Assembly: GCF_005239225.2 (NCBI RefSeq)
Contig: NC_133300.1
Span: 2,199,875-2,263,874 of the forward strand
Length of the DNA: 64,000 bases
Source of the DNA: Populus alba
Lineage: Eukaryota; Streptophyta; Magnoliopsida; Malpighiales; Salicaceae
Direction: 5' to 3'
Under the pieces are notes generated by a model. That model did no database searches. It was given only the letters and a program-made list of their open reading frames with translations, and was not told the origin of the DNA. The translations under genes were made by a program, and so were the position numbers. Shown here piece after piece: positions 11,928 through 60,210 of this stretch; the stretch's first letter is position 1; every line of letters starts with the position of its first letter.

Positions 11928-14900
11928 ATGGCTCTGGAGTTGATCGGCGGATCAATTCTCTCTCCTGTCATTCAGGTTCTGGTCGACAGGTTGGCCTCTC
12001 GTGAGGTTCTGGGCTTCTTCAAAAGCCACAAACTCGATGGTGGTCTTCTGGAAAAGCTGAATGAAACACTGAATACTGTCAACGGACTACTCGACGATGC
12101 GGAGGAGAAGCAGATTACAAATCGTGCTGTGAAGAACTGGCTCAATGATGTTAAACATGCTGTCTATGAAGCTGAGGACATATCGGAGGAGATTGATTAT
12201 GAATATCTACGATCCAAGGACATTGATACCCCTCGACCTGGCAGCAGTTGGGTAAGCATAAGTTCTTGCACCTATAGACCTTGCTTCCTCATAAAAAGTT
12301 TGTTTGTTTTTTTGTTTGTTTTTTTTTTTTTTTAACTTTCATGTATGCTCTCTAGTCTGTAAACGAGGAAAAAAATAATTTTAGGCATGGTTGTTGTCTT
12401 TCTGTGAGTTTTAATTAAAGAGTATTCATTGTTATGCATGCAACTAATATCATTGGCTTTAATCTGGTGTCTCTGGCGAAATTATGCTTGCAAATTCTCA
12501 TTTATTAATTAGTTTTCTAGACATGGGCTTTGGATTTTTAAAATCTGAATTATTTATATAAATTTTGTCAATTTTAATTAAATTATATTTTTTTTTTATA
12601 AGAGCATAAATAAATTTTAATTGTTCTGAAAAAATAAGGGATATAAAATTGAATTGTCTTTCAATATTTTTCATGATGAATAATTAGGACTTACGAGATT
12701 CAAAACCCATTATTATAAATATTAAATTTCTTAGTATTTATATATATAATAATCACCAAGAATTATGCCCTTATTTTTTGTAAGCACAATTAGAATCTGA
12801 AATAATATTTTATGTTGTGCATACTGGACCGAAAGCAAACAGAAATAAAACACAAACAAGCAGATTTATGTGGTTCCCTAAAATCGAGTATGTCCACGGA
12901 GGCAACAGATTATATATTATTGGAGGAATGATACAAAAACTCAACTCAACCCCAATACAATCCCACAAAACCTAGTGTTTCACTCTTATGCTCAGTGTTT
13001 CTCTCAAATCTGTATTTTTCACTCTCACACACGTTGCACTTCACGTACACTCACAGCACACTCTTGCACTCTCTTTGTCTCCATTTATAGGAGAAGTGAA
13101 AGCTCTTGGCAGCAACAGAACCAACTACTACAATAAATATTGTGGTTGATGGTAGTTGAGAAAAATGTTGACAATTGCAAATGTTGACAATTTGCTACAA
13201 TTTATATATGAAAGCTTCATATCTTTGTTTTAAGTATTAAAAATAAATACTTTAATTTTAATATAATATAATAAGGGCTATGAAAATCACTAATGACATT
13301 TAATCACTATCTTTTTAAAACTTGAATTTTACTGCGTGCATTAAGTTAGCATCAACAATTGTAAATTCTCGAAAAAGATCTGTAGAAAGAAAACTTATTA
13401 ATTCTCTAGATGTAAAAATCTTAATGTTTATGTTTTGATATTAAAAAATTATAATGTTTTCCTGAATTCTATCTCATATATTTAGTCCACCATTGCAGGC
13501 AAGGAATCTGGTTCCATTTCTAAATCCAGCTAATAGAAGGATGAAAGAGATGGGAGCAGAGTTACAAAAGATCCTTGAGAAGCTTGAACGTTTACTTAAA
13601 CTAAAGGGTGATCTGCGCCACATAGAAGGTACTGGTGGATGGAGACCATTGTCAGAGAAAACAACTCCACTGGTTAATGAACCTGATGTATATGGAAGGG
13701 ACTCTGATAAGGAAGCCATAATGGAGTGCTTGTTGACACAACACAAGACAGATGACTCAAATTTAGTTGTGGTTCCTATTGTGGGCATGGGAGGGGTTGG
13801 TAAAACCACTCTTGCTCAGCTTATCTACAAAGACAGAAGGGTAGATGAGTGCTTCGAGCTCAAAGCCTGGGTCTGGGCTTCACAACAATTTGACGTCACC
13901 AGGATTATTAAGGATATTCTTGATAAGATCGACGCAACTACTTGCCGCACCAAAGAACCAGATGAATCTCTAATGGAAGCAGTGAAAGGGAAAAAACTTC
14001 TTCTTGTTCTAGATGATGCGTGGAACATTGAGTACAATGAATGGGATAAATTACTGCTGCCTTTGCGGTATGTGGAGCACGGAAGTAAGATTGTCGTGAC
14101 AACACGGGATCAAGATGTAGCAAAAGTCACGCAAACTGTCATCACCCCTCACTGCTTGAAAGGAATACGCTATGAAGATTGCTGGAAGTTGTTTGCAAGG
14201 GATGCATTTAGTGGTGTAAATTCTGGAGCAGTCTCACACTTGGAAGCATTTGGCAGAGAAATAGTGAGAAAGTGCAAAGGTTTACCGCTGGCAGCAAAAA
14301 CTCTTGGTGGTCTTTTGCACTCCGTAGAAGATGTCACGCAATGGGAGAAGATATCCAATAGCAGTTTGTGGGGTCCGTCGAATGAAAACATCCCTCCAGC
14401 TCTAACATTGAGCTATTATTATCTCCCTTCACACCTCAAACGTTGTTTTGCTTATTGTGCAGTATTTCCCAAGGGTTCTAAAATCAAGAAGCATAGATTA
14501 ATCACTGAATGGATGGCACAAGGTTTTTTAGTCCAGCCCAGAGGCGTTGAGGAGATGGAAGAAATAGGTGAAAAATACTTTGATGATCTTGTCTCCAGGT
14601 CACTTTTCCAGCGATCAACTCGTGATTCTTTTTTCAGCATGCATGACCTCGTAAGTGATTTAGCTGAATACGCTAAATTGGGCTCTGGGTTGGAGGGTCA
14701 ACATTTGCGCGCCTTGTTTCTTACTAGGAAAGTTGATAATGAGGCACTGAATGACATCTTGCCAAATCTTAAGAGCTTGCGAACGCTATCTTTATTTAAT
14801 TCAAAACATATTTCTTCTCAGTTGCTCAATTCCATTGGCAACTTAAAACATTTGCGGTACTTGGACCTTTCTCGTACCGCCATAGAAAGGTTACCTGATA

Positions 14901-15769
14901 GTGTGTGCACCTTGTACTATTTGCAAAGTTTATTGTTACGAAAGTGTCGACATCTCATGGAGTTGCCATCCAACATCTCCAACTTGGTCAACTTACAACA
15001 TCTTGATATTGAAGGGACAAATTTGGAAGAGATGCCACCAAAAATGGAGAAACTCACAAAGCTTCGATATTTGGAATACTACATCGTGGGAAAAGATAGT
15101 GGGTCTAGCATGAAAGTGTTGGGGAAGCTCTCTCATTTAAGGAAAAAGCTTTCTATTGGGAATCTCAGAGATGTTGCAAATGCTCAAGATGCTTTGGATG
15201 CCGATTTGAAGGGTAAGAAGAAGATTGAGGAGTTGGGGTTGAAGTGGGATGGCAATACGGATGACACACGGCACGAGAGAGAAGTACTTGAGAGATTGGA
15301 GCCTTCTGAAAATGTGAAACAGCTTTTCATTACTGGTTACGGGGGTACAACGTTCCCAGGCTGGCTCGGAAACTCTTCCTTCTCAAATATGGTAGTGTTG
15401 TTTCTTTATGGATGCAAGAACTGCATCCTCTTGCCACCACTGGGGCAGCTGCCATCTCTAGAAGAGCTCCAAATTAAAGGACTTGATGAAGTTGTGGCTG
15501 TTGGTCCTGAGTTCTATGGAAGTGACTCTTCGATGGAGAATCCATTTAAATCCCTCAAAATATTAAAGTTCGAGGGGATGAAAAAATGGCAGGAATGGAA
15601 AACAGATGTAGTTTTCCCTCATCTTGCAAAGCTCTTCATAAGAGGTTGTCCTGAGTTAACACATGCCATGCCTCCTCGTCGTCGTCTCCTTCCTTCTTTA
15701 TTGATTCTTTCTATTAAAGAATGCCCGCAGCTTGGGGACAGATATTGGAAACGTGTAAAAAAATTTTGA
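11928..15769 (+). CDS. NLR1: CC-NB-ARC-LRR disease resistance protein (RPP13-like 1 type)
   Basis: Two exons, 11928-12251 and 13499-15769, with a phase-0 intron (GTAAGC donor, TTGCAG acceptor), give 864 codons. The ATG at 11928 has a good context (CCACCATGG) and gives the standard CNL start MALELIGG. Domains: Rx-type coiled coil with an EDVID-like motif (EAEDISEEID) in residues 1-110; NB-ARC with P-loop GMGGVGKTT (about 204-212), kinase 2 LVLDDAW (about 278-284), RNBS-B VVTTRD, GLPL (about 368) and MHD (about 489); then leucine-rich repeats to the end. As a family, such proteins are cytosolic ATP/ADP-switch immune receptors that detect pathogen effectors. The LRR is short for the group. Relative to its paralogues it lacks 45 residues right after MHD (in-frame deletions of 33 and 102 nt). 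It is the only copy open in both exons. Confidence 0.9.
12252..13498 (+). other. NLR1 intron
   Basis: A GT-AG intron of 1247 bp separating the coiled-coil exon from the NB-ARC-LRR exon. The NLR2 intron aligns with it but is 776 bp, mainly because NLR1 carries the insertion at 12813-13199. It is otherwise AT-rich and noncoding. Confidence 0.85.
12813..13199. mobile_element. Solo-LTR-like insertion in NLR1 intron
   Basis: This 387-bp segment is absent from the NLR2 intron (empty site near 35787). It starts with TGTTG, ends with CTACA, and is flanked by TTTTA (12808-12812) and ATTTA (13200-13204), a 5-bp target duplication with one mismatch. TG...CA ends and a 5-bp duplication indicate a solo LTR or TRIM unit. 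The orientation is unknown. Confidence 0.75.
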
Positions 15770-18976: not shown

Positions 18977-19970
18977 TGTCACACCCCCACAAAAAAATTT
19001 TATAAAGGCACGACATCGGCTGGCGATTTTCGTTGTGTTCTAAGGATTTGGTTCTTTGGAGTCGCCACCTAGTATTTGGTCACTAGGAACCCTAACTGGT
19101 CTTTCAGAGATTCTAAGGCAAAGGACTGGTTGCGTAAAGGGAAGGTATTAGCACCCCTAATACGCCCTACCTAAGGTAAGCTGCTTGGTGTTTGGTTTGC
19201 TCCATAGTCTATGGTGTTGGTGTCTTCTAAACCCGTCAATTTATTTTGGATAGAAATCTAAGGAAATTCCATGTGCTATGAAAGTTCGTTTTTTCCTTTA
19301 GTATTTCAAAAGTCGGTGACTCGTAAACCGTGGAGAAAAAAAATTAAAATTTTGAAATGTTCTCGATCGCAACCAAAGCTTCTTTCAAACATGTGCGTTG
19401 ATTTATTACTCCCGATAAATATTTTGGATGTTCGTCCTTTTAAGGATTTCTTCATCCAAACATTAGCGGTGAACAATAACCACAACTTCTCCTCCCAAAA
19501 AATAAGATTTTTATAGTTTTTGGAATATTGGCCAATACCCTTTGGAGTTTTACAAAACAGGTTGTAAAATCCACAAATGCAAGAAAATGATTTGTGTTTA
19601 AGAAATCCATGCGAAAACACATTTTTCAAAACTTCCAATATTTTTTTTTATATATAAAAAGAACATTCAAAACATGTTAGTGTATTGGCCGTATGCAACA
19701 CGCAAGAAAATATTTTTTTTTTTTTGACGAAATCGAGTATTTTTAATACTGAATTTGTATCTCCACAGCATAAAAATACAAACTAATATTAAGTCATTTT
19801 TTAAAAAGATGTACGAAAAAAATCAATAATATTTTTAAGGAATTTTTAGAATTTTTTTTTGAAAGCAAAAAAACTTATCTTTGAAAATTTCAGGTGTCTC
19901 GACTAAAATCAGATATTTCAAATACTGATTTTATACCTCCATAGTATAAAAACAAAAATACAAACCCCTT

Positions 19971-20007
<37 letters not shown>

Positions 20008-20111
20008 GGAAAATAACAACATTTTTTTTTTTAGATTTTTCAGATTTTTTATAAATATTTTATATATATAACATATACACACATATTTTATATTATATAT
20101 TAATTATTAAG

Positions 20112-20413
20112 GGGCTGGGCCGGCCCAACTAATTGGGCCGGCCTTAGCCTCACAAGTCATTGGGCCGGTATCGGCCCAAGAAAAGTGACTGGGCCGATCT
20201 CGGCCCAAGAAAAGCGAATGGGCCGATCTCGGCCCAAGGAAAAAAATAACTTGGTCTGGGCCGGACTCGGCCCAGGCCGCCAGGTTGGGCCAGAATCCTT
20301 CTGGCCCATATACATGCTTCTGGGCCAGAACCCATCTGGCCCAGAAGAGAAAACAGAACGGGGGGAATTAATTTCCCCCCGTCCCCTGCATGCAGAACAA
20401 TTCTGCATGCAGG
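20112..20413 (-). repeat. Hairpin cluster inside gypsy LTR
   Basis: About seven palindromes of the form TGGGCCGA-TC-TCGGCCCA or TGGGCCAG-n-CTGGCCCA lie at 20113-20343. A G6/C6 inverted repeat follows at about 20360-20380, then a perfect 13-bp stem CCTGCATGCAGAA/TTCTGCATGCAGG with a 3-nt loop at 20385-20413. The G/C-run stem varies between LTR copies with compensation. Confidence 0.8.
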
Positions 20414-20739
20414 AGACGAAACCTACAGCAGAAGAAGAAAACAAAAATGCAGGGGATAGAGCGTACCTGGCGGGGCTGGAGACGGTGGTTTGCTGGCAGG
20501 GCTGCGGTGGCGTGGCTCGTGGACGGCGGCTCCGGGCGGCGTTGCTGCTGTTTCTAACAATGGCTAAAAATTTTCTTCTCCTCCCCTCTCCTTCGTGTTT
20601 TTTTTTTTTTTTAGTGGCTGTTTGTTCTCGGTTTGGTTTTGGTTTTTTTTGGTTTCGGTTTCCTTCTTCTCGGTTTGTTTCTGTTCTTCTCTCTCTTTCG
20701 GGCCTTACTTCCCTCCTCCCTCTCTCTTCGGTTCCTCTC

Positions 20740-20747
20740 TATTTATA
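20740..20747 (-). promoter_or_regulatory. LTR TATA box
   Basis: The minus strand reads TATAAATA. Downstream in the sense direction come a leader and a candidate splice donor (CCAG, then GT at 20465-20466 on the minus strand). Confidence 0.65.
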
Positions 20748-21644
20748 AGGAAAAAAAGGGACCGGCGTGCCTTTTGTTAGTGCGCTTCAATCACGCAACG
20801 GCTGGTCGGCCATTTGATGCTTTCGGTGGTGGTGGTGGGGGCGGGAGAGAAGAGGCGGGAAGGTTTTCAAATTTTTCATCTTCTGTTGCTGGTAAACGGG
20901 GGAAAGAAGAAGATGAACAGTGTCGTTCAAAACGACACCGTTCTAGTCTTCTTCTTTTTTTTTTTTTTTTTATATGAAACGGCGTCGTTTTGGATAAAAC
21001 GCGCGTTTCATTTAAATGGCCAAACTTCAAATCAGTCCTTCAAATTCGGTCTCCGCCCTCTTGTTGGCCGCATTTTTCACTTTGGTCCTTGGCCTCTGAT
21101 TTATGCAATTGAGTCCTCAATTGATTAATAAACTTTCAATTTCTTCAATTAGGCCCCTGAACCGAATAATTGCAGCCCCTCCATTTACGCGCCTCTTCCA
21201 ATTTGGTCCCTGGTTTCGGATTTTCTTAATTAAGTCCCTAATTGGCCATTAAACTTCAATATTTATGCAATTAAGCCCCTGATTTGACTAATAAAATCCC
21301 TAAAAATTATAATTTGGCCCCAGAACTTAAATTTCTTCAATTTAAAGCCCAATTGACTTAAAAATCAATTTTTCTTGCAATCAAATCCCCTATAAATCCA
21401 ATAAAAATCAATTAAACCCATAAACATCCAAATTTGGGCTTCTCTCTTCAAAATTCAAAATTTCCTTCTCAATAGGGTTCTCATCCTTCAAGAATATATT
21501 GTCAAGAATCCAATCTTTGTATCTTTATACTCCTTGACCAATTTTCTGACCATTTTCCGAGCGCTTCTGCCTCTTGTCATTTTTCTAGCCTTCTTTGGCT
21601 ATTTATTTTATTTTTTTGCGGGGACCCAAAAATGGGTTACAACA

Positions 21645-21657
21645 GATGCCCCCTTTA
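21645..21657 (-). promoter_or_regulatory. Gypsy polypurine tract
   Basis: The minus strand reads TAAAGGGGGCATC directly before the LTR start. The same motif precedes the LTR at 30143. Confidence 0.75.
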
Positions 21658-21791
21658 TAGAGCTTACGGAGCGAAGGCTTTGCGCAGTAAGTTTTATAAA
21701 GATAGTCCCAACTAAACTCCCGAAAACTGATCTAGTCGAAGCTTGATCGATCTTAAAACTCTTTCTTTACAAACAATCCTCTTCGGCCCTC

Positions 21792-22585
21792 GGAATCCCA
21801 TCTGGCAATTCCCTTCAACGAAAATGAAATATGGGGTCCCTTCTGGCGACCCCTTTTTTTGAAAAATATCGAAATGCGAGATCCTTCTGGCGATCTCCTT
21901 TAATCAAAACTTATAATCCCATCTGGGATTCCTATTAACAAACATGAAGTATGAGGTCCCATCCGGCGACCTCCCAAAATAGTGAAACGCGAAATCCCTT
22001 CTGGCGATTTCAAACAACCTGGAATCCCATCTGGCGATTCCTTTTAACCAACATTAAGTGTGAGTTCCCATCTGGCGACCTCCACAATAGCGAAACACGA
22101 GATCCCTTCTGGCGATCTCAAACAACCTGGAATCTCATTTGGCGATTCCTTTTAACCAACGTGAAGTGTGAGGTCCCATCTGGCGACCTCCACAATAGTG
22201 AAACACGAGATCCCTTCTGGCGATCTCAAGCAACCTGGAATCCCATCTGGCGACTCCTTTTAACCAACGTGAAGTGTGAGGTCCCATCTGGCGACCTCCA
22301 CAATAGTGAAAAATGAGATCCCTTCTGGCGATCTCAAACAACCTGGAATCCCATCTGGCGACTCCTTTTAACCAACGTGAAGTGTGAGGTCCCATCTGGC
22401 GACCTCCACAATAGTGAAACACGAGATCCCTTCTGGCGATCTCAAACAACCTGGAATCCCATCTGGCGATTCCCTTTTATTCAAAGCTGAAATATGAAGT
22501 CCCTTCTGGCGATCTTCATCGAAAAACGAGATCCCTTCTTGCATCTCTTTTAACCAAACAACTTGGAATCTCATCTGACGATTCC
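21792..22585 (-). repeat. Array of about 22 covarying hairpins, 108-bp higher-order period
   Basis: On the sense (minus) strand each unit is a 6-bp stem around a 9-nt loop GCCAGAWGG. The inner CC/GG of that loop can also pair, leaving a bulged G and an AGAW tetraloop. Stem types seen are GGAATC/GATTCC, GAGATC/GATCTC, GAGGTC/GACCTC, GAAATC/GATTTC and GGGGTC/GACCCC: both arms change together. Three hairpins (types GGAATC, GAGATC, GAGGTC) form a 108-bp unit, seen at 22171, 22279 and 22387. The array lies between pol and the 3' LTR. Open frames through it exist on both strands because 108 is a multiple of three; I do not regard it as coding. Confidence 0.9.
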
Positions 22586-23268
22586 CTTTTACCAATTGCT
22601 ATCGATGTGTTCTTCCTGCTGGCAGGGTCTGAAAAATATTATCTTCTCTTCTTTCTGTTCTAGACTCAACTCAATATTCTTTCTTCGTCCACAATCTCGT
22701 TGGAATGCACTAAGATCTCCTCTGTAACGAAAAGAAAAAAAAAATACGTGCAATGACTTTATGATTAGATGCAAATGCATGCATTCGTACCTGGTTTTTG
22801 AAACATAGGCCCCCCATCCTCCTCTTCTAGTTCATGAGACTTCCTCGTAACATGAGCGTGCTTTTGAAGTCGTATGCCGGATTCATCTCTCGTGTTGCCT
22901 TTTTTCTTATCATATTCTTGGAGAAAAAGTAATTTGACTTTCCTCAAGTAGTCCTTTTCTCAAAATGTAAGACTTGTTCTTGCTTTTATGTCATTGCTTT
23001 TGTCAAATGCTTTAGCTTGGTTTTCAAATCTATAGGCTTCCGTAAAAACTTTTCATAAAACATCTTGTATTGCCCCCAGTGTAGAGGTGTGATCCTAGTT
23101 TGAGCTTTTTATATAGAGAAGAAATTCGTTTCAGTCGATGCTAAACTTTTTAAATGCGTGAGGAGATGCACTGTTGGGATTAATGCAAAAAATGATTGTT
23201 GTGAGATCAATGCACAAAAGGAAAGAAATCAATGGCCAAACTTTGCTTTATTAATTTAGGGAACTACA
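22586..23268 (-). other. Gypsy spacer between pol and hairpin array
   Basis: Noncoding part of the element's 3' region; most of it aligns in reverse orientation with 28641-29306. No coding frame is conserved between the two copies. Confidence 0.7.
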
Positions 23269-25853
23269 TCAAGCGTAATATCTTTTTACAGAGTCAGAAT
23301 TCACAGGCCGAGCTAGGTTCTCCATCCATTCTAGCTAACTTCAACGCTCCTCCTGAGAATGCCTTTGTTACTACATAAGGACCCTCATAATTTGGTGCCC
23401 ATTTGCTTTGATCATCTCCTGGTAATGACAATATTTTCTTCAATACTAGATCCCCTTCTTGAAACAAACGCGGTCTAACCTTCTTATCATACGCCTTAGC
23501 CATTCGTTTCTGATAAAGTTGGTGATGACATATTGCGGCCATCCTCTTCTCACTGATCAAGTTCAATTGCTCGTATCTCACTCTAGCCCACTCGGCCTCT
23601 TCTATCTCAGAATCTATTAACACTCTTAACGATGGGATTTTCCACTTCCAAAGGCATCACTGCTTCCAACCGTACACCAAAGAATATGGGGGTAGTCCCT
23701 GTTGAGGTTCGAACTGCGGTGCGATATGCATGAAGGGCAAATGGTAACATCTCATGCCAATCCTTATAGGTGACTACCATCTTTCTGAACAATCTTTTGA
23801 CATTCTTGTTAGCAGCTTCCACCGCCCCATTCATCTTTGGTCTATATGGCGAAGAATTGGAATGCTTGATTTTCCATTTAGTGCAGAGCTCTATTTATCA
23901 TCTTGCCGTTGAAATTCTGGGCATTATCAGTTATAATCTGTTCTGGGGGACCATACCGACATATCAAATCTCTCTCAATAAATTTCTTCACCACTTTTTG
24001 TGTCACATGAGCAAATGACCGGCTTCTACCCATTTTGTGAAGTAGTCAATAGCCACGAGGATAAATCTATGACCATTGCTCGCTTTTGGGTTTACAGGTC
24101 CAATCACATCAATTCCCCACATCGCGAAAGGCCATGGAGATGTTAAGTTAAACAGAGGAGCTGGTGGCATATTGACCTTTATCACTGTAAATTTTGACAT
24201 TTGTGACATTTTCTGACATAGTCGATACAATCTTTTTCTAGTGTCATCCAAAAATAACCAGCCCTTTGGATTTTCCTTGCCATCATGTGCCCGCTAGCAT
24301 GGGTTGAGCAAATCCCCTCATGGACCTCTCTTAATGCCTTTCTAGCATCTGCCTCATCCAAACACCTTAACAGGGTACCATCAAATGATCTTTTATATAA
24401 AATCTCTCCATCTAAATAGAAGTCTATAGCCAACCTTCTCAAGGTTTTCTTATCCGTGTTAGAAGCTCCCACTGGATATTCCTGATTCTGCACAAGATTC
24501 TTGATATCGTAATACCAAGGTTGTCCGTCCACCTCTCCTTCGATAAACAACAGTGCGCTGGATCATTTCTAATATCAATGTGTACCGGTTGTACCTTGCA
24601 CTTGAGGTCAATGGTTAGTCATAGCAGCTAGTGTGGCCAAAGCATCCGCAAAATGGTTCCCCTCCCTTCCTAGATGGGTGAATCTAATTTCTTCAAATTC
24701 CTTTGCTAGCATAGATAGGTATTCCTGGTACGGCCTCAACTTTTCCTCTTTGGTTTGCCATTCCCCTTTGACCTGGCAGATGATCAACATTGAATCCCCA
24801 TATACATCTATCTTCTTTTATCTTTAACTCCAATGCCGCTTCTAAACCGAGTATAACAAGCTTCGTACTCAGCTGTATTGTTGGTGCACTCAAAATGTAG
24901 TTTGACCGAAACTGGGTATTGTTTCTTATCAGGAGAGATTATTACGCCCCTGCCCGTTACCATATACATTTACTGCCCCGTCAAAAAACATGGTCCACCA
25001 CTCTGTCTTCTCTTCTTCCTTTTTCTATTTGACGATATATCTTCATCAGGGAAATCAAAATCCAAAGGTTCGTAATCTTCAACAGCATTTATCGGCCAGA
25101 TGGTCTGCAATGGCACTCCCTTTTACGGTGCTTTCCTTGTCATGTACACTATGTCATATTCTGCTAATAAAACCTGCCACCTTGCAATTCGACTTGAGAG
25201 AAAAGGCTTTATTACAAATATACCTCAGAGGATCCAATTTTGAAATCAACCAAGTGGTATAGTATAACATGTAATGTCGCAACCTCTTTGCCGCCCACAC
25301 CAACGCACAACAAAGTTTTTCTATTTCCGTGTATCTGGACTCACATTCCGTGAATTTCTTACTCAAGTAATAAATGGCTCTTTCCTTCCTTCCGGTTTCA
25401 TCATGCTGACCCAATACACATCCCATGGCTACTTCAGTTACAGTTAGATATAATACCAGAGGTTTCCCTGATACAGGAGGCACCAGTAGAGGTGGATTTT
25501 GTAAATAATGCTTGATTTTATTGAACGCCTCCTCACACTCCTCATTCCAGGTTCCAGGTTCTTTTTCCTTAGTAGTCGGAATATAGGCTCGCATGTTGTT
25601 GTTAGCTGAGCTATAAATCGAGCAATGTAATTCAACCTTCCTAAGAATCCTCTTACTTCTTTCTCCGTCTTAGGGGATGACATAGCTTGAATGGCCCTTA
25701 CTTTGTTCTGGATCCACCTCTATACCTCTATCGCTTACCACAAATCCCAACAGCTTGCCCGACTTAACTCCGAATGAACATTTTTGCAGGATTAAGCCTT
25801 AGTTCATACTTCCTCAACCTCTCAAATAAACTTCCTCAAAACTTCCACATGAT
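23269..25853 (-). pseudogene. Ty3/gypsy pol (RT end, RNase H, aRNase H, integrase), decayed
   Basis: Read from the gap leftwards, the minus strand encodes the C-terminal part of reverse transcriptase (25853-25600), RNase H (about 25594-25150), and a second archaeal-type RNase H (about 25050-24600, with NNTAEYEA-, GDSML- and FADALATLA-like motifs). It continues with the integrase zinc finger (HEG...H...CHKC, about 24300-24190), the integrase core (WGIDVIGP at about 24120; NGAVEAANK at about 23820), and a C-terminal region ending at the stop at 23269-23271. The extra RNase H before integrase is characteristic of the Tat lineage (Ogre/Retand). Several frameshifts break it into short frames. Gag, protease and the RT catalytic core are not present; they would lie beyond the gap. 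Confidence 0.88.
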
Positions 25854-26353
25854 NNNNNNNNNNNNNNNNNNNNNNNNNNNNNNNNNNNNNNNNNNNNNNN
25901 NNNNNNNNNNNNNNNNNNNNNNNNNNNNNNNNNNNNNNNNNNNNNNNNNNNNNNNNNNNNNNNNNNNNNNNNNNNNNNNNNNNNNNNNNNNNNNNNNNNN
26001 NNNNNNNNNNNNNNNNNNNNNNNNNNNNNNNNNNNNNNNNNNNNNNNNNNNNNNNNNNNNNNNNNNNNNNNNNNNNNNNNNNNNNNNNNNNNNNNNNNNN
26101 NNNNNNNNNNNNNNNNNNNNNNNNNNNNNNNNNNNNNNNNNNNNNNNNNNNNNNNNNNNNNNNNNNNNNNNNNNNNNNNNNNNNNNNNNNNNNNNNNNNN
26201 NNNNNNNNNNNNNNNNNNNNNNNNNNNNNNNNNNNNNNNNNNNNNNNNNNNNNNNNNNNNNNNNNNNNNNNNNNNNNNNNNNNNNNNNNNNNNNNNNNNN
26301 NNNNNNNNNNNNNNNNNNNNNNNNNNNNNNNNNNNNNNNNNNNNNNNNNNNNN
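25854..26353. other. Assembly gap (500 N)
   Basis: Exactly 500 undetermined bases, a conventional placeholder size. Both sides end inside the same pol gene in opposite orientations. Confidence 1.
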
Positions 26354-28640
26354 ATGAGGAGTGTGAGGAGGCATTCAATAAATCAAGCATTATTTTACAA
26401 AATCCACCTTTACTGGTTCCTCCTGTATCAGGAAAACCTTTAGTATTATATCTAACCGTTACTGGGTAGCCATGGGTTGTGTATTGGGTCAAGCATGACG
26501 AAACCGGAAGGAAGGAAGAGCTATTTAATTACTTGAGTAAGAAATTCACTGAATGTGAGTCCCAGATACACGGAGATAGAAAAGGCTCTGTTGTGCGTTG
26601 GTGTGGGGCGGCAAAGAGGTTGCGACATTACATGTTATACTATACCACTTGGTTGATTTCAAAAGTGGATCCTCTGAGGTATATATGTAATAAGCTTTTC
26701 CTCTCAAGTAGGATTGCCAGGTGGCAAGTTTTATTAGCAGAAATATGACATAGTGTATATGACAAGGAAAGCCGTAAAAGGGAGTGCAATCGCAGACCAT
26801 CTGGCCGATAAATGCTATTGAAGATTACGAACCTTTTGGATTTTGAGTTCCCTGATGAAGATATATTGTCAATAGAAAAGGAAGAAGAAAAGACAGATTG
26901 GTGGACCATGTTTTTTGATGGGGCAGTAAATGTATATGGTAACGGGGCAGGGTGGCGGTGATAATCTCTCCTGATAAGAAACAATACCCAGTTTCGGTCA
27001 AAACTACACTTCGAGTGCACCAACAATACAGCTGAGTATGAAGCTTGTATCCTCGGTTTTTAGAAGCAGCATTGGAGTTGAAAATAAAGAAGATTGATGT
27101 ATATGGGGACTCAATGTTGATCATTTGCCAGGTAAAAGGGGAATGGCAAACCAAAGAAGAAAAATTGAGACCTTACCAGGAATACCTATCCATGCTAGCA
27201 AAGGAATTTGAAGAAAATTAAGATTCACCCATCTGGGAAGGGAGGGGAACCATTTTGCGGATGCTTTGGCCACATTAGCTGCTATGAACTACCATTGATC
27301 TCAAGTGCAAGGTACAACCGGTACACATTGATATTAGAAATGATCCAGCTCACTGTTGTTTAGTTGAGGGAGAGATAGACGGACAACCTTGGTATTACGA
27401 TATCAAGAATCTTGTGCAGAATCAGGAATATCCGGTGGGAGCTTCTAAGACGGATAAGAAAACCTTGAGAAGGTTGGCTATAGACTTCTATTTAGATGGA
27501 GAGATTTTATATAAAAGGTCATTTTGATGGAACCTTGTTAAGGTGTTTAGATGAGGCAGATGCTAGAAGGGCATTAAGAGAGGTCCATGAGGGGATTTGC
27601 TCAACCATGCTAGCGGACATATGATGGCAAGAAAAATCCAAAAGGGCTGGTTATTTTTGGATGACACTAGAAAAAGACTGTATAGACTATGTCAGAAAAA
27701 TGTCACAAATGTCAAATTTACAGTGACAAGGTCAATATGCCACCCGCTCCTCTGTTTAACTTAACATCTCCAATGGCCCTTCGCATGTGGGGAATTGATG
27801 TGATTGGACCTGTAAACCAAAGCGAGCAATGGTCATAGATTTATCCTCGTGGCTATTGACTACTTCACCAAATGGGTAGAAGCCGGGTCATTTGCTCATG
27901 TGACGCAAAAAGTGGTGAAGAAATTTATTGAGAGGGATTTGATATGTCGGTATGGTCCACCAGAAAAGATTATAACTGATAATGCCCAGAACTTCAACGG
28001 CAAGATGATAATAGAGCTTTGCACGAAATGGAAAATCAAGCATTCCAATTCTTCGCCATATAGACCGAAAATGAACGGGGCGGTAGAAGCTGCTAACAAG
28101 AATATCAAAAGATTATTCAGAAGATGGTAGTCACCTATAGGGATTGGCATGAGATGTTTGCCATTTGCCCTTCATGCATATCGCACTGCAGTTCGAACCT
28201 CGACAGGGTCTACACCATATTCTCTGGTATACAGTATGGAAGCAGTGATGCCCTTGGAAGTAGAAACCCGTCGTTAAGAGTGTTAATAGATTCTGAGTTA
28301 GAAGAGGCCGAGTGGGCCAAAGTGAGACACGAGCAACTGAACCTGATCAGTGAAAAGAGGATGGCTGCAATATGTCATCACCAGCTTTACCAGAAACGAA
28401 TGGCTAAGGCGTAATGATAAGAAGGTTAGACCGTGGATGTTTTCAAGAAGGGGATCTGGTATTAAAAGAAAATGTTGTCATTACCCGGAGATGATCAAAG
28501 CAAATGGGCACCAAATTACGAGGGTCCTTATGTAGTAACAAAGGGCATTCTCAGGAGGAGCATTGAAGTTAGCTAGAATGGATGGAGAAGACTTAGCTAG
28601 GCCTGTGAATTCTGACTCTGTAAAAAGATATTATGCTTGA
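26354..28640 (+). pseudogene. Second Ty3/gypsy pol copy (RNase H to integrase), decayed
   Basis: This matches the reverse complement of 23269-25540. It shows RNase H (26366-26760), archaeal-type RNase H (about 26880-27290), the integrase zinc finger (about 27580-27720), the integrase core (about 27790-28290; WGIDVIGP, AIDYFTKWVEAG, NGAVEAANK) and the C-terminal end with stop at 28638-28640. Many one-base indels break the frame, more than in the left copy. The upstream RT and gag are missing at the gap. Confidence 0.87.
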
Positions 28641-29306
28641 TGTAAGCCCTTAAATCAATACAGCAAAGTTTGGCCATTGATTTCTTTCTTCTTGCATTGA
28701 TCTCACAACATTCATTTTCGTATTAATCCAAACAGAGCATGTCTTGGTGTTATTCTCATCACTTATTAAAAGGTTTAGCATCAGCTGAACGCATGTCTTC
28801 TCTATATAAAAGCTCAGACTAGGATCACACCCCTACGTTGGGGCAATACAAAGATGTTTTTTCGGAAGCTAATAGATTTGAAAACCAAGCTAAAGCATTT
28901 GACAAAAGCATGACAAAAAGGCAATAACAAGTCATACATTTTGAGAAAGTGACTACTTGAAGAAAGTCAAAGACTTCTTCTCCAAGAATATGATCAATAA
29001 AAAGAGGCAACACGAGAGATGAATCCAGCATACAAAAGCAAGCTCGTGTTAAGAAGGAGCTTCATAAACTAGAAAAAGATGATGGGGCCTATGTTTCAAA
29101 CAGGTACGAATGCATGCATTGCATCTAATCATAAATCATTGCATGTTTGTTTTTATTGTTACAGGAGGAGATCTTAGTGCATTCCAACAAGATTGTGGAC
29201 GAAGAAAAGAATCGTTGAGTTGATTCTAGAACAACAAGAAGAGAAGATAATAGCTTCCAAACCTTGCCCGTACGAAGAACGACATCAATATCAACTTTGG
29301 TAATAA
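28641..29306 (+). other. Gypsy spacer between pol and hairpin array
   Basis: Noncoding counterpart of 22586-23268 in the opposite orientation. No gene. Confidence 0.7.
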
Positions 29307-29995
29307 GGAATCGCCAGATGGGATTCCAAGCTGTTTGAGATCGCCAGAAGGGATCTCGTATTTCACTATTGTGGAGGTCGCCAGATGGGACCTCATATTT
29401 CATGTTTGTTAAAAGGAATCGCCAGATGGGATTCCGAGTTGATTAAAGGAGATCGCCAGAAGGGATCTCGTGTTTCGCTATTTGGAGGTCACCAGATGGG
29501 ACCTCATATTTCATGTTGGTAATAAGGAATCGCCAGATGGGATTCCAAGTTGATTAAAGGAGATCGCCAGAAGGGATCTCGGGTTTCACTATTTGGAGGT
29601 CGCCAGATGGGACCTCATATTTCATGTTTGTTAAAAGGAATTGCCAGATGGGATTCCAAGTTGATTAAAGGAGATCGCCAGAAAGGGATCTCGGGTTTCA
29701 CTATTTGGAGGTCGCCAGATGGGACCTCGTATTTCATGTTGGTTAAAAGGAATCGCCAGATGGGATTCCAAGTTGATTAAAGGAGATCGCCAAGAAGGGA
29801 TCTCGTGTTTCACTATTTGGAGGTCGCCAGATGGGACCTCATATCTCATATTTCATATAGGAATCGCCAGATGGGGTTTCCGATTTGATTAAAGGAGATC
29901 GCCAGAAGGGATCTCGTATTTCGATAATTGTCAAAAGAGGGCGCCAGAGGGGACTCATATTTTCTATTTTTAGGGAAATCGCTCAGATGGGATCC
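29307..29995 (+). repeat. Array of about 18-19 covarying hairpins
   Basis: This is the second copy of the array, read in sense on the plus strand. First three units: GGAATC/GATTCC at 29307-29327, GAGATC/GATCTC at 29337-29357, GAGGTC/GACCTC at 29374-29394, each around loop GCCAGATGG or GCCAGAAGG. The cycle repeats about every 108-111 bp. A GGAATT/GATTCC variant near 29637 keeps pairing through a G-U wobble. The last two units are degenerate. Confidence 0.9.
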
Positions 29996-30131
29996 AAAAT
30001 TTGAGGCCGAAGAGGATTGTCGTAAAGAAGGAGTTTCAGATCGATCAAGCTTCGACCAGATCAGTTTCAGAAGTTCAGACTGGGTTATCTTTATAAAACT
30101 TACTACGCCTTTGCTCTGTAAGCATTATAAA

Positions 30132-30142
30132 GAGGGGGCATC
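30132..30142 (+). promoter_or_regulatory. Gypsy polypurine tract
   Basis: GAGGGGGCATC directly precedes the LTR start TGTTGTAACCC, as on the minus strand at 21645-21655. Confidence 0.75.
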
Positions 30143-30859
30143 TGTTGTAACCCATTTTTGGGCTAAATAAATAAATAGCCGAAGAAGGTTAGAAAAATAA
30201 CAAGAGGCATAAGCGCTCAGAAAATGGTCGAAAGATTGGTCAAGGAGGTTAAAAAATACAGAGATTGGATTTTTGGCAGTATTTTCTTGAAGGATGAGAG
30301 CCCTGTTGAGAAGGAAAATGTAAATGTTTGAGGAGAAAAGCCCAAATTTAGATGTTTATGGACTTAATTGGATTTTATTTGAATTTTATAGAGGATTGGA
30401 GTGCAAGAAAAATTGATTTTTAAGTCAATTTGGGCTTTAATTAGAAGAAATTTAAGTTCTGGGGCCAAAATATATTTTTTTTAGGAATTTATTGGGTCAA
30501 AATCAGGGGCTTAATTGCATAAATATTGAAGTTTAATGGACAATTAGGGGTTTAATTGTGAAAAATCCGAAACCAGGGACCAATTTGGAAAAAGCGGGTA
30601 AATATGGGGGGCTGTCTTGATTTGATCCAGGGGCGTAATTGAAGAAATTGGGAGTTTATTGATCAATTGAGGGCTTAATTGCATAAATCAGAGGCCAAGG
30701 ACCAAAGATGAAAAACGCGGCCAACTATGGGGGCGAGGACGAATTTGGCAGGGACGTAATTGAAAGAATCAAAAATAATTGAGGGCTGAGTTGAAATTTT
30801 GCGTATTCTGGCGCCATTTTTTAAATGAAACGGCGCGTTTTCCCAAAACGACGCCGTTT

Positions 30860-30900
<41 letters not shown>

Positions 30901-31186
30901 CGAACGGTGCCGTTTTGAACGGGCACTATTCACCTTTTCTTCTTCTCCCCGAACGTGCAGCAGCATGGACGAAACCTTTGTTTAATCAGGCGGTGCCCAT
31001 CTCTCCTCGCGTGCGCTGACAGACCAAGCCCATGCACCTCGGACGATGCGAAGCCAGGAGGGCCACGCCGTGATCGACCACGCTCACCGACCAGCCGACC
31101 GGCGCTGCCCCCTACGTTTGCCCCAGCTCAACCCACCTTGTTCTGCTCCCCACGCTGGCCCATGCAGCCCCGCTCCTTTGTCCGCC

Positions 31187-31194
31187 TATAAAAG
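31187..31194 (+). promoter_or_regulatory. LTR TATA box
   Basis: TATAAAAG in the sense direction, in the same place as TATAAATA in the other LTRs. A GA-rich leader with several short AGAGAGAGA runs begins about 20 bp downstream. Confidence 0.7.
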
Positions 31195-31540
31195 AAGAGG
31201 AAAGCATGTGAAGCACGAAAAAAAGAGGGAGACCGAAACCAAGAGAGAGAGAGAAACTGAAGGAGAGAGAAACAGTGGACCTAAAGAAATAAACACCTAA
31301 AACTCAAGAAAACGAAACTGAAAAAAGGGAGAAGAGGACAGAAGCCGTGGGAGAGTTTAAAGAAAACGTTAACCGAACACGACCCGAGAGGATACACCCG
31401 AACTGTGGGGAACCGTCGTTCTGAGCCGCCGATCTCCGCTGCAACACCCGTCAACCCGTACGTTCGACCAGCAGCCTCACCTCCGCGTGCCAGGTATTTT
31501 TTCTTTCCCCCCTACGTTTTCATTTTTTATATTTTGTTAT

Positions 31541-31805
31541 CCTCCTGCATGCAGAATCGTTCTGGCATGCAGGAGGTAGGGGAAGGGAAAATAATTCCCT
31601 TCCCCGTGGGTTTTTTTACACTGGGACCGGGTTTCCGGCCCAGTTTTGTTATTATTTATTTTGGGCCAGACCGAGTCTGGCCCAGTCAAAAGAATTTTTT
31701 TGTGTTGGGCCGAGATCGGCCCATCCTCCTTGCGGGCCGAGATCGGCCCATCCTCCTTGCGGGCCGAGATCGGCCGATTCTAGCTAGGTTGGGTTCGGCC
31801 CATTC
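31541..31805 (+). repeat. Hairpin cluster inside gypsy LTR
   Basis: A stem of about 16 bp (CCTCCTGCATGCAGAA against its complement, with one extra G) at 31541-31576. Next is an 11-bp stem GGGGAAGGGAA/TTCCCTTCCCC at about 31578-31605. Then come GGCCGAGA-TCGGCC palindromes at about 31706-31800. The second stem differs from the G6/C6 form of the 18977 LTR by compensated changes. Confidence 0.78.
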
Positions 31806-32911
31806 ATTTGGCCCCAACCCGATTTGTTATTATATATATATTATGAATTATAGTATATTGTAATATATATGTGCGTATATTGTGTATAATATTTTTTTCT
31901 ACTAAAAAAAAAATATTTCAAAAAATCTAAAAAAAATATTGTTGATTTTCCTGCATGTTTTGGTCAAAAGTGTTTAATGTTGGTTTGTATTTTTATACCG
32001 TAAAGATACAAAACCAGTGTTAAAAATACCCGGTTTTCGTCAAAATATCAAAGATTTTCAGAATAAAAAATGTTTTTTTGCTTTCAAAAAAATTCTAAAA
32101 AGTCCCTAAAAATGTTGTTGATTTTTCTGCATATTTTTATCAAAGTGGATTAATATTGGGTTGTATTTTTTATACCGTAAGAATACAACCCAGTATTAAA
32201 ATGCCGATTTTTGTTAAAGCATCAAAAAATAAATATTTTCCAAAAAAAAAAAGGTTTTGTTTTCATGCATACGGCCTAGTCTCTCCAATATATATATATA
32301 ATATTATAACATCATATTTTCACACAACAAAGAAAATTTTCAAAACAATATATGTATTAGCATGCATTTTGGCTTTAATAACCAGTTTATTTAAGCCATG
32401 AGAACTAGGCCAATATTTCAAAAAAAATCAAAAAAAAAATTTTTTGTTTTCTTTTAGTATTTGGGATTACGAATTTATACGTAAAACGTATTCCTAAATA
32501 TTATTAAATGAAATTTTGGTATGGACGTTAGAACGGTTAGGATTTTACCCGATAAGATAAAGCCTTTCTTACCGAGGAGGATTTTTCTTGAACCATAGAC
32601 AGACCAACAACTAGAAAAACACGAAAAATACCTTAGATTTTATCAGACAATAAAACAATGCAGCTTACCTTAGGTAGGGCGTATTTGGGGTGCTAATACC
32701 TTCCCTTTACGCAACTAGTCCCCGTACCCGATCTTTGAGACCAGTTAGGGTTCCTAGTGACCAAAATACTAGGTGGCGACTCCCTTTCCATTTTCCACCC
32801 ATAAAAGACAATATTTTCTTGTATCCCCATAGATATAGATAGATTTACATTGTAGATAAGAAAATGGAACAAACAATACATTTTTCGCCGCGACGCCGCA
32901 CACGTGCGACA

Positions 32912-34910: not shown

Positions 34911-37900
34911 ATGGCTCTGGAGTTGATCGGCGGATCAATTCTCTCTCCTGTCATTCAGGTTCTGGTCAACAGGTTGGCCTCTCGTGAGGTTCTGGGCTTC
35001 TTCAAAAGCCCACAAACTCGACGGTGGTCTTCTGGAAAAGCTGAATGAAACACTGAATACTGTCAACGACTACTCGACGATGCGGAGGAGAAGCAGATTA
35101 CAAAGCTTGCTGTGAAGAACTGGCTTAATGATGTTAAACACGCTGTCTATGAAGCTGAGGACATATTGGAGGAGATTGATTATGAATATCTACTATCCAA
35201 GGACATTGATCGACCTGACAGCAATTGGGTAAGCATAAGTTCTTGCACCCTATAGACCTTGCTTCCTCATAAAATGTTTGTTTGTTTTTTTTTTTTTTTT
35301 TAACTTTCATGTAAGCATAAGATTGTTTGTCTGTAAACGAGGAAAAATAATTTTAAGGCATGGTTGTTGTCTTTCTGTGAGTTTTTAATTAAAGAGTATT
35401 CATTGTTATGCATGCAACTAATATCATTGGCTTTTGGTGTCTCTGGCGAAATTAATGCTTGCAAATTCTCATTTATTAATTACTTTTTCTAGACATGGCT
35501 TTGGATTTTTAAAATCTGAATTATTTATATAAATTATGTCAATTTTAATTAAATTATATATTTTTTATAAGAGCATAAATAAAATTTTAATTGTTCTGAA
35601 AAAATAAGGGATATAAAATTGAATTGTCTTTCAATATTTTTAATAATGAATAATTAGGACGTACTAGATTCAAAACCTATTATTATAACTATTAAATTTC
35701 TTAGTATTTATGTATACAATAATCACCAAGAATTACGCACTTATTTTTTGTTAGCACAATTAGACTCTGAAATGATATTTTATATATGAAGCTTCATATC
35801 TTTATTAAAAATAAATACTTTACTTTTAATATAATATAATAAGGGCTATGAAAATCACTAATGTTAAGTTAGCATTAACAATTGTAAATTCTTGAAAACT
35901 TATTAATTCTCTATATGTAAAATCTTAATGTTTATGTTTTGATATTATAAAATTATAATGTTTTTCCTGAATTCTATCTCACATATTTAGTCCACCATTT
36001 GCAGGTAAGGGATCGGGTTTCCATTTCTAAATCCAGCTAATAGAAGGATGAAAGAAATGGGAGCAGAGTTACAGATAATCCTTGAGAAGCTTGAACGTTT
36101 ACTTAAACACAAGGGTGATCTGCGCCACATAGAATGTACTGGTGGATGGAGACCATTGTCAGTAGAAAAACAACTCCACTGGTTAAGTGAATCTCTTGTA
36201 TATGGAAGGGACGCTGATAAGGAAGCCATAATGGAGCACTTGTTGACACAACACAACACGGATGGCTCAAATTTATGTGCGGTCTCTATTGCGGGTATGG
36301 GCGGGATTGGTAAAACCACTCTTGCTCAGCTTATCTACAACGACGAAAGGGTAGATGAGTGCTTCGAGCTCAAAGCCTGGGTCTGGGCTTCTCAACAATT
36401 TGATGTTGCCAGGATTATTAAGGATATTCTTGATAAGATCAACGCAAGTACTTGCCGCACCAAAGAACCAGATGAATCTCTAATGGAGGCAGTGAAAGAG
36501 AAGAAACTTCTACTTGTTCTAGATGATGCATGGAACGTCGAGTACATTGAATGGAAAAAATTACTGCTACCTTTGCAGTATGTGGAGCACGGAAGTAAGA
36601 TTGTCGTGACAACATGGGATGAAGATGTAGCAAGAGTCACGCAAACTGTCATCCCCTGTCACCGCTTGAATGTAATAAGCGATGAATATTGCTGGGAGTT
36701 GTTTGCAAGGGATGCATTTAGTGGTGTAAATTCTGGAGCAGTCTCATCCTTCGAAGCATTTGGCAGAGAAATAGTGAAAAGGTGCAAAGGTTTGCCGCTG
36801 GCAGCGAAAACTCTTGGGGGTCTTTTGCACTCCGTAGGAGATGTCAAGCAATGGGAGAAGATATCCAATAGCAGTTTGTGGGGTTCATCGAATGAAAACA
36901 TCCCTCCAGCTCTAACATTGAGCTATTATTATCTTCCTTCACACCTGAAACGTTGTTTTGCTTATTGTGCAATATTTCCCAAGGGTTATGTATTCAAGAA
37001 GGATGGATTAATCACTGAATGGATGGCACAAGGGTTTTTAGTCCAGCCCAGAGGCGTTGAGGGGATGGAAGATATAGGTGAAAAATACTTTGATGATCTT
37101 GTCTCCAGGTCACTTTTCCAGCAATCAACTCTTGATTCTTTTTTCAGCATGCATGACCTCATAAGTGATTTAGCTGAATACGCGTTAGGAGAATTTTGCT
37201 TTAAGCTTGGTATAAATGAATCGGGCTCTAGGTTGGAGGGTGAACATTCATGCTCTCTTCCAGAAAGGACTCGTTATTTATCAATCACTTCAGCGGCAGC
37301 ATATGGTGAAGGACTTCGGATATTTCGTAGCATTCATGGAGTCCAACATTGGCGCACCTTGTTTCCACTTCGTATTTCAAGGGAAGTTGATATTGAGGCA
37401 CTGAATGACATCTTGCCAAATCTTAAGCGCTTGCGAATTCTATATTTATGTCAACCAAAAGATATTTCTTCTCAGTTGCTCAATTCCATTGGCAACTTGA
37501 AACATTTGCGGCACTTGAACCTTTCTTGGACCACCATTGAAAGGTTACCCGAAAGTGTGTGCACCTTGTACTATTTGCAAAGCTTATTGTTAAAGATGTG
37601 CCGACATCTCATGGAGTTGCCATCCAACCTTTCCAACTTGGTCGACTTACAACATCTTGATATTGAAGGGACAAATTTGAAAGAGATGCCACCAAAAATG
37701 GGGAAGCTCACGAAGCTTCGATTTTTGGAATCTTACATCGTGGGAAAAGATAGCGGGTCTAGCATGAAAGAGCTGGGGAAGCTCTCACATATAAGGAAAA
37801 AACTTTCTATTCGGAATCTCAGAGATGTTGCAAATGCTCAAGATGCTTTGGATGCCGATTTGAAGGGTAAGAAGAAGATTGAGGAGTTGGGGTTGATGTG

Positions 37901-38426
37901 GGATGGCAATACGTATGACACACCACACGAGAGAGAAGTACTTGAGAAATTGGAGCCTTCTGAAAATGTGAAACAGCTTGTCATTACTGGTTACGGGAGT
38001 ACAACATTTCCAGGCTGGCTTGGAAAGTCTTCTTTCTCAAATATGGTAAAGTTGACACTTTCTGGATGTAAGAACTGCATCCTCTTGCCACCAGTGGGGC
38101 AGCTGCCTTCTCTAAAAGAGCTCCATATTGAAGGATTTGATGATGTCGTGGCAGTTAGTTCTGAGTTCTATGGAAGTGACTCTTCGATGGAGAATCCATT
38201 TAAATCCCTCAAACTATTACGGTTCGAGGGGATGAAAAAATGGCAGGAATGGAAAACGGATGTAGATGGTGCTTTCCCTCATCTTACACATCTCTTCATA
38301 GTAGGTTGTCCCGAGTTAACAAGTGCCTTGCCTCGTCACCTTCCTTCTTTATCGATTATTGCTATTGAAAAATGTCCGCAGCTTGGGGAAGGATTTTTTG
38401 GATGCGTGGAGAAGATTTTTAATTAA
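34911..38426 (+). CDS. NLR2: CC-NB-ARC-LRR protein, exon 1 and start of exon 2 frameshifted
   Basis: Gene layout is as in NLR1: exon 1 34911-35228 (MALELIGG start), GT-AG intron 35229-36004, exon 2 36005-38426. Exon 1 has one extra C near 35007 and one missing G near 35069; the first leads to an in-frame TGA. Exon 2 has one extra T near 36020. From 36048 a frame of 792 codons is open. It has P-loop GMGGIGKTT (about residue 83 of this frame), kinase 2 LVLDDAW, GLPL, MHD and LRRs ending CPQLGEG. The RNBS-B motif reads VVTTWD: the usual Arg is Trp (TGG at 36615-36617). Unlike NLR1 it keeps the full linker after MHD. All three frame lesions are single bases in short runs and may be sequencing errors; if real, no full-length product is made. 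Confidence 0.8.
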
Positions 38427-59825: not shown

Positions 59826-59833
59826 TATAAATA
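59826..59833 (+). promoter_or_regulatory. LTR TATA box
   Basis: TATAAATA followed by a purine-rich leader, in the same place as in the other LTRs. A solo LTR may still drive transcription to the right. Confidence 0.65.
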
Positions 59834-60210
59834 GAGACTTAACGCTAGCACGCGAGAGGGGGGAGGGAATTGAGAGGACGAACGGAGAGGAAATGGAGAG
59901 AAACAGAAAATGAACAGAGGAGAGAGAACGAACCGAACAAAAGGGAACCACTGATAAACTCAAACGGAGAGGAAGGAGAAGCTTGAAACCAGGAGGGAAA
60001 CTTAAAAACAGAAAGAAAACAGAGAACCAAGAGAACACATAACCCTTTGAAACAGCCGCAGCGCCGCTTGGAGTCGCCGTCCGTGAGCCACGACACCGCC
60101 ACCGGCCTCCACTGCAACACCACTAGCGAAGCAGTCCGACCTGCAGCACCGCCTCCTCCGCGCCAGGTAAAGTATTCTTCTCCCCTGCATTTTTTTGCTA
60201 CATGAGTGTT

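Follow-up and report, generated by a model that had tools for sequence, protein, structure and literature searches.

Tandem repeats in the 3′ region of Tat-lineage long terminal repeat (LTR) retrotransposons are already known. Most satellites of Lathyrus sativus derive from the 3′ tandem repeats of Ogre elements (PMC7004042), about half of the recent Retand elements carry arrays (PMC11963269) and, in the accessible parts of these sources, the repeats are described as family-specific and of unknown origin and function (PMC7004042, PMC11963269; for the function also PMC3305785). The accessible text of PMC7004042 and PMC11963269 contains no mention of 'hairpin', 'stem-loop' or 'secondary structure'. 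In soybean, the Gmr9/GmOgre minisatellites are short families, interleaved in an [ABAC]n or [ABC]n pattern in the interval from the coding region to the LTR. Their A, B and C repeats are reported to be unrelated, except that B and C agree at 9 of their last 11 bp, and the accessible part of the paper describes no stems or loops for them (PMC3305785); the comparison made here is one of descriptions.

The DNA considered in the following is a window of 64,000 nucleotides (i.e. the whole stretch that was analysed) of the Populus alba genome. It contains an array of short hairpins, W1, which is like the Tat (Ogre, Retand) 3′ repeats, as far as these are described in the accessible text, in place, lineage and copy-number variability. 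A selected RNA-hairpin array in the Tat 3′ region, or a hairpin array of such kind in any plant LTR retrotransposon, was not found among the open-licence PMC papers searched. Hypervariable 3′ untranslated regions are said to have been the subject of an earlier first report.

Single W1 units resemble known RNA hairpins in part. The MS2 coat-protein operator is made of a lower stem, a 5′ bulged purine, 2 bp and a tetraloop, the stem being free to vary and the loop and bulge being fixed. The W1 unit has the same layout, but with a G instead of an A as the bulge, an AGAW loop and a natural array of ~20 copies. The retroviral dimer-initiation (DIS) hairpin exposes a self-complementary apical loop of ~6 nt; like DIS (SL1)/Psi, W1 units are self-complementary hairpins predicted to form an extended homodimer, but they have AGAW in place of a self-complementary apical hexaloop, lie in the 3′ region and occur in many copies. 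In the units with U as the last loop base, self-complementarity spans the whole hairpin and not an apical loop of ~6 nt. The AGAA and AGAU loops also fit the AGNN of yeast RNase III (Rnt1) substrates (PMC13183374, accessible part); Rnt1, however, cleaves at 14 nt on the 5′ and 16 nt on the 3′ side of the loop, which falls outside the 8-bp stems of W1. As for plant elements, the accessible part of PMC3735527 speaks of signals for dimerisation and packaging in BARE2.

The reading favoured in the following, tentatively and at rather less than an even chance, is that W1 is a cis-acting sense-RNA array of a Tat-lineage LTR retrotransposon, in which pairing and loop would be under selection and of which dimerisation or packaging would be the likeliest use.

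The host elements

Two copies of the host element, W1 and W2, lie head to head in the window, and the 5′ halves are missing in both (table 1). The W1 array is found ~140 bp upstream of the polypurine tract and LTR, on the minus strand, and that of W2 has the same placement, directly before its own LTR. Both arrays are, thus, just upstream of a 3′ LTR, in agreement with the gypsy 3′ region recognized in the preliminary description. The LTR of the family is ~2.7 kb long, and the distance from the H2C2 domain to the LTR is ~2.5 kb in W1.

Table 1. Features of the hairpin arrays and of their host elements, in positions of the 64,000-nucleotide window.
Feature	Position	Strand	Remark
Hairpin array W1	21792..22585	-	22 units; A-B-C cycle, period 108 bp
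First A unit, upper pair C8-G15 to U-A, compensated, GTCAGATGA core	22565..22585	-	clade of 30 elements
C-slot unit GAAG(A)TC/GACTTC, pair 3 altered on both arms, one bulged A	22496..22516	-	34 elements
b unit GAAATC/GATTTC, pair 3 compensated	21991..22011	-	essentially one array position
c unit GGGGTC/GACCCC, pair 2 compensated via G·U	21833..21853	-	one array position
Polypurine tract end (GGGGGCATC) and 3′ LTR start TGTTGTAACCC, W1	21634..21653	-	
3′ LTR of W1, TG...CA	18977..21644	-	~2.7 kb
Integrase zinc-binding H2C2 fragment, W1	24182..24559	-	PF17921, E 3e-9
Archaeal-type RNase H (aRH, RVT_3) fragment, W1, between RH and INT	24608..24814	-	Tat lineage marker
RT-associated RNase H, W1	25154..25666	-	PF17919, E 6e-26
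RT-associated RNase H fragment, W2	26470..26745	+	PF17917, E 3e-7
Integrase core fragment, W2	27816..28127	+	PF00665, E 4e-11
Hairpin array W2, inverted sister copy	29307..29957	+	17 units called, cycle 111-112 bp
3′ LTR of W2, TGTTGTAACCC ... CACACGTGCGACA	30143..32911	+	

An additional aRH between RNase H (RH) and integrase (INT) distinguishes Ogre and Retand, i.e. the angiosperm Tat elements, and the usual length of the target duplication is 5 bp, according to the accessible part of PMC6317226. The domain order of W1 on the minus strand is RNase H, aRH (RVT_3), integrase, and a solo LTR of the same family (58814-61538) has the 5-bp target duplication AAGGA on both flanks. W1 and W2 are, therefore, members of the Tat lineage of Ty3/gypsy, and the Tat type proposed at the outset is upheld by the location of the aRH. 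No chromodomain match was obtained among the pol fragments scanned, which were a subset of the open reading frames. In 8 of the first 100 listed LTR ends (of 290 genome-wide) the LTR is followed by GAA TGGCGACTCC, likely the primer-binding site; the flanks of most other listed ends differ from one another, which is what 3′ or solo LTRs would show.

A few observations concern the surroundings of the arrays. The stretch 21073-30714 of the window forms a large imperfect palindrome, with the junction of W1 and W2 near 25.3-26.6 kb. Short tandem repeats with the (near-)palindromic GGGCCGAGATCGGCCC are found inside LTRs at 20154-20243, 31707-31775 and 60393-60456. Beside the elements there are NB-ARC/LRR resistance-like genes (13466-15769 and 36009-38426) and, at 36-49 kb, tandem duplications of ~4 kb.

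The hairpin array and its copies in the genome

Each W1 unit is composed of a 6-bp stem, a bulged G, the CC/GG pairs and an AGAW tetraloop, with the core GCCAGAWGG, from which part of the units depart by one or two changes. All six lower-stem pairs are present, in an ungapped register, in 17 of the 22 units, three of these 17 having one G·U, and the remaining five contain a broken pair or an indel. The repeated stems are A (GGAATC/GATTCC), B (GAGATC/GATCTC) and C (GAGGTC/GACCTC), and GAAATC/GATTTC (b) and GGGGTC/GACCCC (c) occur in one copy each. The preliminary description, which had been made from the sequence of the window, was right in proposing about 22 units with a shared loop and a three-stem cycle of 108 bp, the period returned also by TRF (5.5 copies, 92% matches). 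Its five stems are all present, although two of them are single-copy here and a sixth, GAAG(A)TC/GACTTC, had been missed. The CC/GG pairing, the bulged G and the mostly invariant loop are likewise supported, with the exception that the upper C-G pair became U-A in one lineage. The folding check that it had suggested gave minimum energies below all 20 shuffles for both arrays (z -4.65 for W1 and -5.53 for W2), but such scores are non-specific, as any inverted-repeat array would fold below its shuffles. An Rfam scan of 21000-31000 (E up to 1) yielded three matches, none of which reached the gathering threshold or lay over either array; among weak matches, RAGATH-8 at 22866-23040 on the minus strand (26.2 bits versus a gathering threshold of 86.7) is most likely due to chance.

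The 16-mer GATCGCCAGAWGGGAT occurs 1,765 times in the genome (416 Mb, 96 contigs) and its reversed control not once, which shows that the abundance of the motif is not due to chance; GATCGCCAGAWGGGATC was absent from the viral contigs searched. Copies were collected through an anchor near the polypurine tract, i.e. beside the array and independent of the hairpin itself, which was found in 275 places (up to two mismatches). The first 80 of these in list order (72 exact, eight with one mismatch) and the two copies of the window make up a sample of 82, of which 80 contained hairpin units and two yielded none. Slot assignment by the linker succeeded for 1,585 of the 1,735 candidate units (A 547, B 516, C 522), a collection limited to units with at most two loop changes; the remaining 150, whose linker fitted no slot, were excluded. 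The unit trees comprised 1,472 units for the R-scape-like test, and 1,436 for event counts, where 36 bulged C-slot units were left out because, scored ungapped, they would inflate the A·C counts. The arrays have from 2 to 35 slotted units, with a median of 21.

That the array is translated and its palindromes mirror a peptide repeat is hardly credible: the A-to-A spacings of 90-130 bp are divisible by 3 in 273 of 427 cases, as would suit a coding repeat, but none of 74 arrays is open throughout in any frame on either strand, and this candidate was rejected on that ground.

Founder units and later compensated changes

The three founder units A, B and C are alike in the loop and partly alike in the linkers, and carry matched two-arm differences at pairs 2, 3 and 4. 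Most of the stem diversity is the diversity among these three founders. After them, about four shared compensated changes can be recognized: b at pair 3, c at pair 2, the first A unit at pair 7 and the C-slot unit at pair 3 with its bulge. In the sampled elements b and c are each found at essentially one array position and are, thus, single events and not recurrent classes. The reconstructed path leads to c via G·U and to the upper pair of the first A unit via U·G, while b (pair 3) and the change at pair 2 of founder A are reconstructed via A·C and not G·U, which counts against selection on pairing. The intermediate of c, GGGGTC/GACCTC, is still found in 25 elements; genome-wide, 99 places around c divide into 88 GACCTC and 11 GACCCC, and around b the single changes are six G·U and five A·C (A loop), next to 21 doubles with the A loop. 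The A·C counts for c, as those for unit E of the second family (see below), refer to the sampled loci only.

The preliminary description took the concerted change of both arms as a sign of selection on base pairing and proposed an R-scape analysis. Judged by a tree-based null, stem pairs 4, 3 and 2 show no significant covariation (E 0.99, 3.0 and 10.6, respectively), a result that counts against the claim, although stem pairs take first, second and fourth place among all column pairs; the lack of significance follows from the founders having been copied in tandem. The paired fraction, 96.8%, exceeds that of the tree null (85.1 ± 7.1%), but with 98.1% as the highest null value it is of no clear significance. 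In a later tree null only pair 2 stands out, and its reconstructed root is a mismatch, which makes the test unreliable there; for each of the other seven pairs, between 53 and 279 of the 500 nulls reach the observed value. When relatedness is ignored, 79 hairpins that come from at least two loci are 95.1% paired versus 88.8% in shuffled sets (0 of 500) and, ignoring relatedness again, their covariation is 0.411 versus 0.273 (0 of 500), with far lower values for slid structures. Of the original argument, the change of both arms stands.

These results bear on the idea of a selfish tandem repeat, in which a chance hairpin was duplicated, three founders were fixed by drift and the rest arose via unequal exchange and template slippage. 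Founder diversity as the main source of stem diversity, the spread of array size and the fact that Tat arrays are common in this region and variable in length (PMC7004042, PMC11963269 and PMC3305785, in their accessible parts) all fit such an origin. It is, nevertheless, decidedly unlikely, because it leaves the matched two-arm differences between founders to chance, and because of three further features set out below: the unequal spread of G·U and A·C variants, the constraint on the loop and the conservation of hairpins between families whose linkers have diverged.

Spread of variants and constraint

Distinct G·U-forming (11) and A·C-forming (10) one-sided variants at pairs 2-5 originated in near-equal numbers, but their fates differ: 10 of 11 G·U variants reached at least three elements, versus 3 of 10 A·C variants and 3 of 11 transversions (p 0.008 for G·U versus A·C and p 0.002 for G·U versus all breaking changes), with the proviso that the element counts of spread variants may be raised by recurrent mutation. 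Three of the G·U variants are each carried by between 21 and 29 elements of family 1, i.e. the family of the anchor-selected copies. Broken forms have also spread, namely GAGGTC/GAACTC (15 elements), GAATTC/GATTTC (7), a decayed A unit (AGGAAT/GATTATA; 28) and a GCAAGAAGG core (23).

Counted as events, changes at pairs 2-5 common to at least two elements are 22 of the G·U type versus eight of the A·C type (p 0.016 versus 1:1), and private ones are 22 versus 14 (p 0.24, not significant); when the CpG-affected pair 6 is included, the private events lean towards G·U by 41:19, which counts against selection as the cause. The baseline is 1:1 together with the linker ratio of G·U- to A·C-type events, normalized for composition as linkers are T-rich; the resulting value, 1.12, indicates little mutational strand bias.

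The ratio of shared (at least three elements) to private changes is 0.30 for loop plus bulge, 0.31 for the upper pairs and 0.41 for stem pairs 1-6, versus 0.73 for the adjacent linker (p 0.007, 0.006 and 0.013, respectively), the loop figures being biased downwards since units were recovered via the core. Stem pairs 2-5 alone, with 0.60 versus 0.73, are not significantly slower than the linker (p 0.49). Sense hairpins are slightly more stable than antisense ones among 281 distinct hairpins (151 versus 127, p 0.02).

The constraint on the loop introduces the close rival of dimerisation, a protein docking array. A single RNA-binding protein, with the Gag nucleocapsid or a host factor as candidate reader, would recognize the loop and the bulged G for export, stability or packaging, with no RNA-RNA dimers. 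Loop and bulge are indeed among the most constrained sites, with shared:private counts of 3:24 for G2, 0:7 for A3, 7:21 for the bulge and 5:11 for W4, compared with 298:336 for the linker; by the same measure, however, A1 of the tetraloop is unconstrained (5 to 5). With the points given in the last section this reading appears somewhat unlikely in itself.

A second family with G·U as the usual state

A search for GAAATC/GATTTC with the U loop identified 25 places, of which eight were fetched. Seven of these, plus L001, have diverged linkers and arrays that cycle through two units every ~100 bp, and L103 is family 1-like. What is said of this family 2 is based on eight loci (93 units, six of them outside the assignment) and on pattern counts. 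In L001 the array again precedes a polypurine tract and an LTR, which starts with TGTTGCTACCC. Between families 1 and 2 the hairpins are 0.86-0.87 identical and the homologous linkers 0.62 (shuffled 0.50).

The D units of family 2, TGAGGTC/GATCTCA, have a sense G·U at pair 4 in 34 of 40 cases, and the E units, GGAATC/GATTTC, a G·U at pair 2 in 29 of 47, with A-U in the other 18; A·C was seen at neither position among the sampled units. Genome-wide, the D hairpin is found in 778 exact G·U copies, 21 A-U and 0 A·C, numbers that refer to copies and not to events. In 36 D and 36 E hairpins, which together provide 576 pair cells, 87 cells are G·U and 20 mismatched in the sense strand, versus 15 and 92 in the antisense strand. 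Such an asymmetry between strands is better explained by sense RNA than by extruded DNA.

A function at the DNA level, by hairpins extruded from the duplex or formed in single-stranded cDNA and acting in recombination, heterochromatin or integration, is consequently highly improbable. Perfectly paired family 1 units do fold about equally well on either strand, and those with the A loop even slightly better as antisense, but the preference for sense G·U predicts a poorly paired minus-strand cDNA, and the slight stability advantage of the sense hairpins points the same way; antisense pairing was set aside as disfavoured by the mismatch counts given above.

Compensated stems may also arise with no selection at all, if a reverse transcriptase or polymerase switches template and copies one arm onto the other. 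Inverted repeats are known hot spots, double changes would be made in one step, and the passage of b and of one founder change through A·C agrees with it. Such a correction of palindromes should, however, erase G·U as readily as A·C, yet G·U prevails over A-U in the D hairpins and the three common G·U variants persist in family 1; the asymmetry, moreover, is a property of the sense strand alone. As the main cause of the matched arms it is, thus, very unlikely.

Sequence statistics, thus, give moderate support to a constraint on pairing in the sense strand, and the case for selection rests on the spread of variants, the constraint relative to linkers, the few later compensated changes and the second family.

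A different candidate motif, UGGGU-AGGUC-ACCCA followed by GACC, makes up arrays elsewhere in this genome, in related elements (232 units with up to two mismatches, at 15 loci: L001:720-1490 and 1636-1770, L002, L045, L073, L081, L092, L093, L095, L097-L102 and L104). Its closing pair is U-A in 209 units, U·G in 9, C-A in 7, C-G in 6 and G-A in 1. The loop GGUC could pair with the downstream GACC in a putative pseudoknot, the match being exact in 146 of 232, a count biased upwards by the choice of the best site in range. Four stretches of L001 were folded, and the three with the motif were no stabler than shuffles.

Possible role in dimerisation and packaging

According to the favoured reading of a sense-RNA array, each unit of the genomic transcript would take the fold described above (6-bp stem, bulged G, CC/GG pairs, AGAW tetraloop), and selection would keep pairing and loop while leaving the stem sequence free to change. 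Many copies of one loop/bulge surface may then provide multivalent recognition, and the U-loop units (A, most C and nearly all sampled family 2 units) may form same-type homodimers between two RNAs. Dimerisation of the genomic RNA and its packaging, by the array alone or by the Gag of the element, would be the likeliest use.

How a dimer could form is indicated by the sequence of the U-loop units, which contain CCA-GA-UGG; two like units could thereby anneal into an extended duplex that includes a GA/AG step. In ViennaRNA, the homodimer gains -8.0 kcal/mol over two hairpins for the U loop and -1.8 for the A loop, and no heterodimers are predicted among A, B and C(U), both being model values for isolated units; neighbouring units with A, B and C stems should, thus, not cross-pair. 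Loop position 4 is U in 98% of A slots, A in 99% of B slots and U in 70% of C slots. Whole-array partition functions for 25 arrays predict that the local hairpin is kept with a probability of 0.88 for B, 0.27 for A and 0.42 for C, the low values for A and C counting against the favoured reading, and the minimum-energy folds of the W1 and W2 arrays contain long pairings that join like units. The partition functions and the minimum-energy folds both fit a mixture of monomer and dimer-prone units, on which ground a role in dimerisation or packaging is preferred, as a model-based possibility, to docking. A docking protein would be well served by the A-loop B units, predicted to persist as stable monomer hairpins, but it would leave unexplained why the fourth loop base (U or A), and with it the dimer-prone or monomer state, depends on the slot. 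A more specific proposal, unlikely as it stands, is an RNA zipper through which the retrotransposon genome would dimerise or be packaged: each of the orthogonal 3′ hairpins would pair solely with a hairpin of like type on the partner RNA, and loop base 4 would set dimer-prone versus monomer units.

Tat/Ogre repeats near the 3′ LTR are common and able to seed satellite DNA, and, if such repeats are selected RNA structures, their function becomes testable. The array would then be a natural example of multivalent RNA whose stems are orthogonal and, were the zipper to prove true, the unexplained tandem repeats of Tat elements might, more broadly, be arrays of structured RNA motifs.
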